Shown: positions 7,483-51,084 of the stretch, one piece after another
Layout of the letters: each line of letters opens with the position of its first letter
Numbering within the stretch: the first letter of the stretch is position 1
NCBI RefSeq assembly: GCF_001458315.1
Contig: NZ_CYRX01000025.1
Location: 248,001-312,000, forward strand
From: Thalassobacter stenotrophicus
Lineage (GTDB): Bacteria > Pseudomonadota > Alphaproteobacteria > Rhodobacterales > Rhodobacteraceae
Direction of reading: 5' to 3'
DNA: 64,000 bases
The notes under the pieces: generated by a model
Seen by the model: the letters and a program-made list of their open reading frames with translations, nothing else
Database searches by the model: none
What the model was told of the DNA's origin: nothing
Program-made: the position numbers and the translations under genes

Positions 7483-8643
7483 TTAGGTCGTGACACGCAG
7501 GCTCTCTAAGCCATGAAAATGGTAAATGTCTGCGTACTGCGGCGTGCCTAAAAGCTTTAAATTAGGTTTTCGCTCCCACAGGCGATTGAGCGAAATCTCA
7601 AGTTCTAGGCGAGCAAGCGGAGCCCCAATGCAAAAGTGAATGCCTGCGCCGAAGCTTAACGGTTGCGCGTCGCTTCTGTCAGGATGAAACGAATTGGGGT
7701 TCTTGAAAGCGTTGGCGTCGCGGTTGCCCGAAGCCAAAAGAAGCGCGACGCGATCACCGGGATTAAATGTATGGCCCGCGATCTCAACGGTTTCATATGC
7801 GATCCGCTCAAACAGATGCAGCGGAGGATCGAACCTAAGGATTTCATTGATGAACGTCTCACCGATTTGAGGTGAAACTCCTAAGTCTAAGAGCGTCTTA
7901 ACCGTATTTCCGAATGTATGAACGGTCGCTTCATGCCCTGCATTGAGCAACAGAATGCAGGTGCTGATGACCTCATGCTCGCTAAGCTTTTCTGCGGTGT
8001 GGGCTGTTAACAAGGTTGAGATCAGGCTGTCGTCGGGGGTCGCTCGTTTAGCCTCAATTTGGATCTTGATATACTCTGAGAAGCTTTGTGCCGCTGCCGC
8101 CGCGACATCCTCCTGCTCGCGTGTGCGATTAGATTGATACATCGCAACCATTCTTTTTGACCAGTCCACGAGGCGTTGCCAGTCCCCTTCGGGGACACCT
8201 AGGAAGCGCGCGATTATGCGCGCTGGTAGCGGACGTCCGTAGGTTTCGAGCAGGTCAAATGGCCCATTAGGAAAGGTATCGATGAGTTCGTCGCACAGTG
8301 CCTCGATTTCTGGGCGCAGGGCCTTTATGCGTCTGTTCGTAAATGCCCGCAAAACTGCGCCGCGCAGACGGGTATGATCCGGCGGCTCAAGTTCTAGCAT
8401 CGAGTGTGCCTCTACCGCATAGAATGGTTTGAGGTGCGGTGGGACCTGGATGGGGGCCATAGGCGCGCGGCCAAATCGGCGATCGCGCAAAATGGTGTCG
8501 ATCGTAGCGTAGTCCGTGGCGCATATGACATCGTAGTCTTGCCAGTGGACTAACGGCCCAGCCGAGCGCATTTTTTCATAGAATGGGTAGGGATTTTGAA
8601 CAAAGGCTGGATCGCGAGGCGATTGTGACAAGCTTTGCATCAC
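7483..8643 (-). CDS. Cytochrome P450
   Basis: A soluble bacterial class I-type P450 of 386 residues. The heme-binding loop [15 protein letters not shown] carries the thiolate ligand at Cys338. The I-helix oxygen-activation motif is AGHEAT near residue 233, and the K-helix ExxR is EILR near 267. No transmembrane anchor is present. The substrate is unknown, and no ferredoxin or reductase gene is nearby, so electrons must come from elsewhere. Its ATG overlaps the stop codon of tpiA by four bases (ATGA), which implies translational coupling to a glycolytic gene, an unexpected partner. Confidence 0.93.
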
Positions 8644-9371
8644 TGCGCGGCGAGGGCCTCAATGATTGGACAGAAATCTGCGGCCTTTAGGGACGCTCCG
8701 CCAACCAATGCGCCGTTCACGTTTGCGCAGCTGAAAATCTCACTGGCATTGGCCGCTTTGACGGAGCCGCCATAAAGCAGCGTAAAGTCTTTACCATCGT
8801 TAAACCTCACACACAGGTCGACGCGTAGGGCATCGTGGACCTCTGTTATCTGTTCGATCTCAGCTACGCGGCCTGTTCCTATGGCCCAAACGGGTTCGTA
8901 GGCTACGACTGTGTTGGCTGCAGTTGCGTCGTCCGGCACGCTGTTACGAAGTTGTTTCGCAAGAACGTCGAGGCAGTTACCAGCCTCGCGCTGAGCCAAG
9001 GTTTCGCCAATGCAAACAATGGCAATCAAGCCGGCGGACCAAGCGGCCTTTGCTTGTGCCTCAATGTCCTTATCAGTCTCGTTGTGATCGCTGCGTCGTT
9101 CAGAATGGCCAACGATAACATGCGAGGCGCCGGCATCGCACAGCATTTGGGCTGAGACATCGCCGGTATGTGCACCTTGGTTCGCAATGTGGCAATTCTG
9201 ACCGCCGATGTGCAGCCCGGGTGTTGCTGCCGCCGCAATCAGTGTGGCTGGTGGGCAGATCAGCGCCGGAATGCTCGTCGCCGTAGCTGTATCTGCGATA
9301 GCCGGAAGTTCGCTCAGGTCGGACTTAAGCCCGTGCATTTTCCAATTGCCAGCGGCGAGTTTAGAGGGCAT
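8640..9371 (-). CDS. tpiA: Triose-phosphate isomerase
   Basis: Interconverts dihydroxyacetone phosphate and glyceraldehyde 3-phosphate in glycolysis, gluconeogenesis and the Calvin cycle. The 243 residues form one TIM barrel. The catalytic residues are present: N9 and K11 in AGNWKMH, H89 in GHSERR, and E159 in [10 protein letters not shown], followed by the phosphate-gripping loop GTG and the GGSV motif. CAGGAG before the ATG is a fair ribosome-binding site. It is upstream of and overlaps the P450 gene. A second tpi copy elsewhere in the genome cannot be excluded from this window. Confidence 0.95.
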
Positions 9372-9406
9372 GCGCGGATCTCCTGAGCCAATGTGTTCAG
9401 GAGAGG

Positions 9407-9775
9407 TTAAGGCTTATCAACGGCCAATGCATCATCAAATTTGATCGACTCACCGCATCCGCACGCGTCGACGACATTGGGATTACGGAACTTAAAGCCT
9501 GCCTCAAGTAGGCTGACTTCGTAGTCAATTTCTGTTCCGAACAGGAACATCTGTGCCATAGGCGCGATCATCACACGCGCACCCTCGACTTCCACGACTT
9601 CGTCATTTTTGTCTATCTCAGAGACGTATTCCATCGTGTATTCCATCCCTGCGCAGCCACCTTTTTTGATGCCGATGCGCAAGCCCATGGAGTTATCTTT
9701 CTCCATTAGCTTTGAAATCTGGCCCGCAGCGGCGGGTGTTAGGGATACAGGTGGGTTGCCGGGAATGCCGAACAT
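9407..9775 (-). CDS. HesB/IscA/SufA-type iron-sulfur carrier
   Basis: A-type Fe-S carrier that accepts nascent clusters from the SUF scaffold and delivers them to apo-enzymes in the cytoplasm. The 122 residues contain the three invariant cysteines, C41 (GGCAGM) and C105/C107 (CGCGES), in the expected spacing. I chose the ATG at 9775 because AAAGGAG lies eight bases upstream; the longer frame from 9814 would cover that site and adds unrelated residues. The gene follows a SufT-like gene on the same strand after a 199-base gap, which fits the tail of a SUF cluster whose other genes are not in this window. Confidence 0.92.
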
Positions 9776-9974
9776 GAGCGATCTCCTTTGGGAGCAAGAT
9801 AAGCCTGAGTGCATTTAGGCTCAAGAGGCAAGGCAGTGGTAAGTGAAGCGTTCAACCAGTTCAGCTATGTACAGCGTTCCAATGAGCGAGCCATTAACAT
9901 GACCCTCAAGATCTTAACGCTGCGGTCCCGCTTTGAAAAAGCACACTCAGGGCTTTAGCACATCTGAACGGTTT

Positions 9975-10328
9975 CTACATGAAGCCCAATTCAAGCCGCG
10001 CTTCGTCGGACATCATCTCCATGCCCCATTGCGGCTCCCACGTTAGGTCTACGTCTACCTGCTTTACGCCTGGCAGGGGTGCTACAGCGTCAGCAACCCA
10101 GCCGGGCATTTCGCCAGCAACGGGGCAACCTGGCGCTGTAAGCGACATGATGATCCGCACTTCGCTTTCCGCATTGATATCAATGGTGTAGATCAGGCCA
10201 AGGTCATAAATATTGACGGGGATCTCTGGGTCGAACACCGACCGGCAGGCGTTAACGATGCCTTCATAAAGAGGGTGATCCGTGGAGGAGGGCGCGATCA
10301 GCGGCGTGCCTTCAAGAGCGTCTGACAT
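9975..10328 (-). CDS. SufT-like MIP18/DUF59 iron-sulfur maturation protein
   Basis: A small cytoplasmic protein (117 residues) of the MIP18 family (DUF59), which helps mature Fe-S proteins. The family core DPEIPVNIYDLGLIY is at residues 33-47. The loop TAPGCPVAGEMP carries the conserved cysteine C68, and the C-terminal part has the WEPQW motif typical of the SUF-associated (SufT/PaaD-like) branch. Its neighbour is an A-type Fe-S carrier on the same strand. PaaD of phenylacetate degradation is a paralogue, but the context favours the SUF role. Confidence 0.9.
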   Translation of the reverse strand: MSDALEGTPLIAPSSTDHPLYEGIVNACRSVFDPEIPVNIYDLGLIYTIDINAESEVRIIMSLTAPGCPVAGEMPGWVADAVAPLPGVKQVDVDLTWEPQWGMEMMSDEARLELGFM

Positions 10329-50358: not shown

Positions 50359-50387
50359 TCTGTATGTATACGACGGTATACAGTCAA
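50359..50387 (-). promoter_or_regulatory. Candidate icd promoter with GTATAC repeats
   Basis: On the minus strand TTGACT and TACAGA are separated by 17 bases. Two GTATAC motifs lie in the spacer, one of them the centre of GACGGTATACAGTC. This resembles GntR-type control of icd. Confidence 0.4.
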
Positions 50388-50409: not shown

Positions 50410-51006
50410 TCAGTCCCGCAAAACACCCAAATAGGCAACGCGGGATGGGGTGGGGGCAGCGGCGGGTGAAATCGCGCGACCACCGCCCATTGCTGCCACA
50501 AGACTGCGGAATTCGTCATCCGTCAGTTCGGCAGGGGACCGATCAAATGCCACCTCCGAAGCCTTAAAGAACCCGATGATCCACGTCCCGTCAGGCGCGT
50601 GGCCCATATCAACGCGATCAAGAAACAACGCAAGTTGCGCCGTTTTTGGCAAGCGCTCATCAAGAGCGAGGGTGTAGGTCAGGCGGCTGACTTTCCCAAC
50701 GCCGGGCACCATACTGGCAATTGAGACAGGGCGGGCGAGGGTTTGTGTCACGGTGCCATCGGTCGCGGGACCGCGGGTTTTGAGGTCGACACCATTATGG
50801 CGAAAGAAATTGGGGTCTTGGGTCGCAAGCACCTGTTCGACCCGGCCGGGGCCCAGATCATGCGCGCCGCGGCCCTGAGCGATCAAGGAAGCGGCCTCAA
50901 CAATGAGGTCAGGTGCATCTGTGCGGGCCTGATGCCAGCCGGTATAGGCTTTCGCCACAACCAAAATCGCCAACACACTCAGACAGCCGGTAAACCAACG
51001 TCCCAT
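50410..51006 (-). CDS. Membrane-anchored GT51-like transglycosylase pseudoenzyme
   Basis: A 198-residue protein with an N-terminal membrane anchor (about residues 5-21) and a periplasmic domain resembling the GT51 peptidoglycan glycosyltransferase core of MtgA/PBP1. The GT51 signature EDxxFxxH appears as QDPNFFRH (63-70), so the catalytic Glu is Gln. The GSTITQQL block appears as GTVTQTLAR (84-92), and the KxxE helix that carries the second Glu reads KVSRLTYT. The end of the fold is recognisable (LPKTAQLALFLDRVDMG near 119-135). It is far shorter than a PBP and lacks a transpeptidase. GGAGGAG precedes the ATG at 51006. A catalytically dead regulator or scaffold is possible; remote homology is inferred. 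Confidence 0.65.
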   Translation of the reverse strand: MGRWFTGCLSVLAILVVAKAYTGWHQARTDAPDLIVEAASLIAQGRGAHDLGPGRVEQVLATQDPNFFRHNGVDLKTRGPATDGTVTQTLARPVSIASMVPGVGKVSRLTYTLALDERLPKTAQLALFLDRVDMGHAPDGTWIIGFFKASEVAFDRSPAELTDDEFRSLVAAMGGGRAISPAAAPTPSRVAYLGVLRD

Positions 51007-51057
51007 GTACAACTCCTCCTATGCGGTGCCAATTTCGGCTCTCACACTGTATGCGGT

Positions 51058-51084
51058 AGTATACGGGTTTGGGTTGAAAATCAA
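51058..51084 (-). promoter_or_regulatory. Possible promoter of the GT51-like gene
   Basis: On the minus strand TTGATT and TATACT are separated by only 15 bases, a short spacing, about 50 bases before the ATG. A GTATAC overlaps the -10 element. Confidence 0.3.

Follow-up and report, generated by a model that had tools for sequence, protein, structure and literature searches.

The main finding of this analysis is a family of GT51-derived proteins in which the flap is lacking and the catalytic glutamate, otherwise invariant in GT51 enzymes, is optional. Judged from sequence, this is a stronger result than the single-gene pseudoenzyme candidate put forward by the first-pass annotation of the window (that is, the whole 64,000-nt stretch of DNA that was analysed): variation of the catalytic position between E, Q and A, combined with a fixed deletion of the flap, is a stronger argument for a pseudoenzyme than the pair of substitutions seen in the window copy. 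The window gene is itself a real GT51 pseudoenzyme candidate.

The gene in the window and its predicted fold

The reading frame given by the first-pass annotation was confirmed at 50410..51006 and lies on the minus strand (ATG at 51006-51004, stop codon at 50412-50410), encoding a membrane-anchored, GT51-like protein of 198 amino acids. It had been described as complete, with a good ribosome-binding site; the frame is indeed open, and an AGGAGG motif read directly from the DNA is placed 8 nt 5' of the ATG (51015..51020, minus strand), but the C-terminal CxPx4DVWLEGC tail of its orthologues is missing. A hydrophobic, putatively transmembrane helix occupies residues 2-25 (50932..51003, minus strand), as judged from the residues themselves and from AlphaFold secondary structure, and the predicted helix runs unbroken from this N-terminal segment to residue 43.

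The neighbouring genes at this locus are icd and gyrA. Two GTATAC sites, 10 bp apart, were observed 5' of icd within CTGTATGTATACGACGGTATACAG (window 50366-50381), and another was observed 5' of the GT51-like gene (TGTATGCGGTAGTATACGG, 51059-51064); the window contains 11 such sites, where 2.6 were expected from shuffles. As a guess, the sites near icd and the GT51-like gene could be operators of one regulator, for example of the GntR type.

The presence of a GT51 pattern behind the membrane anchor was borne out by both profile and structural comparison. The Pfam model Transgly (PF00912) matched residues 56-184 (129 aa; 50455..50841, minus strand) with E = 2.5e-10 and 40.5 bits, which is above its curated (gathering) cut-off of 27 bits. 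Matches to NCBIfam were weak, and nearly all of them were to PBP1A, PBP1B, PBP1C and MtgA models, while the closest relative in the PDB was E. coli PBP1b. AlphaFold produced a model of the window protein with a pLDDT of 87.8 and a pTM of 0.84, and a model of one orthologue (G063) with values of 93.7 and 0.90 respectively; the flap helix is absent from both. When the two models were compared with the PDB using Foldseek, the credible matches were exclusively to GT51 structures (A. aeolicus PBP1A GT, SaMGT, PBP1b and SaPBP2), and the check by structure prediction that had been suggested was thereby answered in favour of GT51, with PBP1b among the matches. Homology and predicted fold place the window protein in the GT51 superfamily, by a match well beyond chance.

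Two more specific identities were considered and rejected. The gene is not an MtgA orthologue; it scored 14 bits against TIGR02070 (MtgA), for which the equivalog cut-off is 182.65, and a true MtgA is encoded elsewhere in the same genome (189.5 bits). Nor is it a decayed fragment of an ordinary PBP, since the equally short orthologues constitute one clade with a common deletion and tail. At 198 aa and lacking a transpeptidase domain, the protein also falls outside the definition of PBP1C.

The flapless family and its catalytic positions

The flapless GT51-like family has at least 25 proteins; 25 distinct members, including the window copy, were aligned, and PF00912 was matched in all 21 of the members scanned. 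Members have one N-terminal transmembrane helix and a motif I of the form [EQA]DPxFxxHxGxD. The flap of approximately 13 residues, which in ordinary GT51s belongs to the jaw subdomain and separates motif I from motif II, is missing in 25 of 25 members and its site is a loop that usually reads TPGAG; in the window protein, alignment puts this short loop at residues 75-84 (50755..50784, minus strand). The spacing between the catalytic position and Thr133 is 21 in 24 members and 22 in the window copy, as against 34 in E. coli PBP1b. Motif III reads KxRQ instead of RKxxE, and a C-terminal CxPx4DVxLxxC tail is a further mark of the family, missing among full-length members solely in the window copy, which otherwise displays DPxFxxHxGxD, a spacing within the range of 21-22, the T..Q of motif II and a single transmembrane helix.

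Punekar et al. 2018 (PMC6053601) described, at the jaw base of SaMGT, a pocket formed by Asp101, His107, Gly109 and Asp111 of motif I, by Gln129-Thr133 and Gln136 of motif II, and by Lys153 of motif III, and proposed it as the docking site for lipid II pyrophosphate. The same work reported that D101N and Q136E abolished polymerisation, that the flap double mutant L119N/F120S abrogated the interaction with lipid II, and that motif I stabilises the GT51 domain (PMC6053601). Using SaMGT numbering, D101, H107, G109, D111 and Q136 were present in 25 of 25 members of the flapless family, T133 in 24 and K153 in 21. In the window protein, motif I (QDPNFFRHNGVD, residues 63-74; 50785..50820, minus strand) retains the pyrophosphate-pocket residues D64, H70, G72 and D74, while motif III (KVSR, residues 105-108; 50683..50694, minus strand) retains Lys105, the equivalent of SaMGT Lys153.

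The catalytic positions were numbered with reference to E. coli MrcB (PBP1b), where E233 and E290 were both confirmed as Glu in the translated mrcB. Direct counting showed that Gln63 of the window protein, the first residue of QDPNFFRHNGVD, corresponds to E233, and that Arg108, which ends KVSR where ordinary GT51s have RKxxE, corresponds to E290. The reported loss of the first catalytic glutamate from the window protein was thereby upheld. Across the family this position was occupied by E in 15 members, Q in 9 and A in 1 (n = 25), compared with E in 98 of 98 ordinary GT51s. The first-pass annotation had asked whether Gln63 was conserved and had named orthologues with the catalytic Glu as evidence against its reading; Gln63 proved to be shared by a minority, and such orthologues exist in part, that is, the 15 members retaining Glu. 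On the family tree, the E/Q state changed at least four times (21 rows, with both Glu columns left out; 4-6 changes in bootstrap trees), including one change inside a single genus (Q in G688; E in G357, G685, G686 and G687). PBP1A and PBP1B lose their GTase activity when the motif I glutamate is mutated (PMC4632607).

At the second position, Gln was found in 22 of 25 members. It was also found in 34 of 98 ordinary GT51s, essentially those of the PBP1C type and including the PBP1C of the window's own genome (L147); E. coli PbpC (L152), which was read separately, likewise has Gln at this site (GGKIRQ). Loss of the second glutamate therefore says little about activity, because the PBP1C type also has Gln there; the first-pass annotation was right that this residue had changed, but not in taking the change as a sign of lost activity. 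Glycosyltransferase activity of E. coli PBP1C in vitro was reportedly described by Schiffer and Hoeltje in 1999. If PBP1C is active, this comparison indicates that the second glutamate is not required throughout GT51. The first is the informative position. Three marks of an active GT51 are lacking in the window protein, namely the first glutamate (Gln63), the second (Arg108, which is not decisive) and the flap, which is deleted. The residue pattern and the flap deletion agree with the original view of a catalytically compromised GT51, and it is quite probable that the window protein does not polymerise lipid II.

Distribution, selection and the state of the window copy

In a tree of 20 members and 81 other GT51 domains, the flapless family formed a single clade, separate from MtgA and the PBPs (SH-aLRT = 100). 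It joined between PBP1C and all other GT51s, a position beside PBP1C that is suggestive only, the tree being unrooted and based on 135 columns, with a family branch of 1.2 changes per column. Approximately 10 of 395 genera of the window's own (Rhodobacteraceae-like) taxonomic family carry a flapless GT51 gene; nine further genera were found by the search of these ~395 genera, with 36-44% identity to the window protein. A profile search added Tistrella mobilis and one more alphaproteobacterial genome, while a sample of the phylum contributed two carrier genomes in a further alphaproteobacterial family and one in another proteobacterial class, such that the known range extends over a number of alphaproteobacterial families and into a second proteobacterial class. 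Within three genera, carriers amounted to 6 of 6, 2 of 4 and 1 of 2 species. The gene is usually single in a genome and either chromosomal or plasmid-borne, with plasmid records from Azospirillum, Agrobacterium and Tistrella, where it is annotated as 'glycosyl transferase' or 'transglycosylase domain-containing protein'.

No conserved operon was found among the loci compared, only one group of related genera sharing the arrangement dctBD-gene-rne. Elsewhere, the neighbours (named by eye from sequence where unannotated) were an aminotransferase, cysE, an AHL synthase gene or a class D beta-lactamase, while dctD and rne were adjacent in the one genus group; in most carriers of the window's taxonomic family the setting was chromosome-like, between housekeeping genes. 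A phage collection produced weak, partial GT51-type matches only. Ordinary GT51s were present in all 21 genomes checked, which comprised carriers and some sister species, and MtgA exceeded its cut-off in 20 of these, the exception being a genome that is 81% complete (G505). The flapless protein is therefore an extra and not a replacement, and the idea that it substitutes for MtgA was rejected.

Broken copies were identified in G016, G112, Agrobacterium F2 (copy 1) and Tistrella (copy 2). On Tistrella mobilis pTM1 (L115, about 8500-10130), the second copy is cut after motif I by a putative IS256-type transposase gene. On Agrobacterium F2 plasmid p2, an intact member (L151, 5049-6672) and a divergent class D beta-lactamase gene are separated by 133 bp, and a second member on the same plasmid (L128, 7938-8594) is frameshifted and annotated as two CDS. 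The G175 orthologue (L113, 119-577) ends prematurely in a different reading near a contig end, through either a real break or an error of assembly. The plasmid locations, the scattered occurrence and the damaged copies indicate an accessory gene, subject to gain and loss; the family is patchily inherited and horizontally spread.

Close orthologue pairs within the family had dN/dS values of 0.10-0.22, and the value was 0.14 for the pair G063/G682, both of which have Gln at the first catalytic position. The family is maintained under purifying selection. The first-pass description of a maintained gene, not a decaying one, is correct at the level of the family but uncertain for the window copy, on account of its missing tail, the loss of near-invariant residues and its long branch. 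At the second catalytic site the window copy has Arg where nearly all orthologues have Gln (Q108R), near-invariant residues are also altered by R107S, A112T and E116D, and its terminal branch of 1.94 is among the longest in the family tree. Going by these features, it is among the most degenerate family members.

Such features would be expected of a relic on its way out, that is, an open frame under relaxed constraint whose tail has gone while that of all other full-length members persists, in a family where broken copies are common. This explanation is nonetheless considered unlikely. The frame comprises 198 codons with neither stop nor frameshift at about 60% amino-acid divergence, and in a simulation of neutral drift over 200 substitutions the frame stayed stop-free in 3% of runs; constraint has therefore probably acted on the window copy through much of its past, with recent relaxation possible. 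Its good ribosome-binding site, its still confident fold prediction and its retention of D64, H70, G72, D74, T85, Q88 and K105 also argue against a relic. With R108 and no tail, the window copy may retain only part of the family function.

Proposed function and significance

The best explanation, which in its full form we consider evenly balanced between right and wrong, is a non-polymerising GT51 family protein that docks on lipid II and acts in trans. This would be a single-pass inner-membrane protein with a periplasmic GT51 domain unable to polymerise lipid II, polymerisation having been lost as the catalytic base ceased to be essential (E, Q or A), the second glutamate was replaced and the flap, which aids lipid II capture and chain movement, was deleted. 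The protein would dock on a pyrophosphate group, belonging either to lipid II or to a nascent lipid-linked glycan, and leave it unprocessed; so bound, it would influence the cell's own class A PBPs and MtgA in trans, or else occupy or shield the precursor. We infer the lost polymerase activity, the binding of lipid II and the regulatory or shielding role alike from sequences and predicted structures. Retention of the pocket in the absence of a fixed catalytic base or a flap suggests binding without processive polymerisation; however, the pocket residues of motif I could be conserved for folding only, and loss of the flap might likewise have put an end to lipid II binding, by analogy with the flap mutation of SaMGT. 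The lack of a shared operon or partner gene pointing to a pathway also counts against this explanation.

Comparison with known systems bears on how far the domain has departed from an enzyme. The family resembles MtgA and the GT domains of class A PBPs (PF00912) in fold, motif order and single N-terminal membrane anchor, and has in common with them the motif I and motif II residues of the pyrophosphate pocket and, in most members, the Lys of motif III. It differs from them in its variable first glutamate (Q in the window copy), its replaced second glutamate (R in the window copy), the absence of the ~13-residue flap and the extra C-terminal Cys...Cys tail (lost in the window copy). Gln at the second catalytic site is shared with PBP1C/PbpC (KIRQ in both), but the family has neither transpeptidase domain nor flap, its first glutamate is not fixed and it has Q, not M, at the Q136 position. 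Among the laboratory mutants SaMGT E100Q and PBP1b E233, the former has Gln at the catalytic base in common with the Q members of the family, although the change in the family is natural, recurrent and coupled to flap loss. The structure of SaMGT E100Q holds bound moenomycin (3HZS/6FTB), so a Gln-bearing GT51 domain can still hold a ligand.

Some members could instead be active but unusual enzymes, in which the first glutamate and a second-site Gln, as in PBP1C, support a non-processive reaction on a glycan or lipid-linked substrate (short-chain transfer or cleavage), and from which the Gln and Ala members, including the window copy, arose by secondary loss. Retention of Glu in 15 of 25 members, the same E and Q pair in PBP1C including E. 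coli PbpC, the annotation of PbpC as a peptidoglycan glycosyltransferase and the lysozyme-like description of the GT51 head (PMC6053601) are consistent with this. However, the E/Q changes number at least four and Gln members show no sign of faster decay (dN/dS of 0.14 for G063/G682), while the flap is lost in every member, and activity of this kind is regarded as decidedly unlikely. The 15 Glu-bearing members, with their PBP1C-like Gln at the second site, may have residual activity.

A defence or resistance protein, serving as a decoy or shield of lipid II or GT51 domains against toxins or antimicrobials (lantibiotics, or moenomycin, of which GT51 is the target), would account for the presence on plasmids and the patchy distribution, and would accord with the Azospirillum, Agrobacterium and Tistrella plasmids, the scattered presence, the absence of an operon and the copy beside a class D beta-lactamase gene, but that neighbour is a single case, most carriers of the window's taxonomic family have the gene in housekeeping contexts, no anti-phage defence model was matched, and the proposal is highly improbable. 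An anti-phage role in particular was rejected, as no PADLOC model matched.

Pseudoenzymes regulate active relatives in many enzyme families. The preferred reading of a non-polymerising, lipid II-docking protein extends, in its most ambitious and rather doubtful form, to a mobile natural family of flapless GT51 pseudoenzymes that would bind the pyrophosphate of lipid II without catalysis, exert control over peptidoglycan synthesis, or shield it, in trans, and have exchanged Glu for the isosteric, dead Gln several times independently. Within the library searched, which lay mostly outside the subscription journals, no paper describing a GT51 pseudoenzyme or a flapless GT51 family was found. Recognition of the family would correct the automatic annotations 'glycosyl transferase' and 'transglycosylase domain-containing protein'. 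A natural flapless domain with E, Q or A at the base would allow the parts of GT51 concerned with lipid II binding to be separated by test from those concerned with polymerisation, and would permit a test of whether cell-wall synthases have pseudoenzyme partners. If no ligand were bound, the family would still represent a dead GT51 domain retained under selection.
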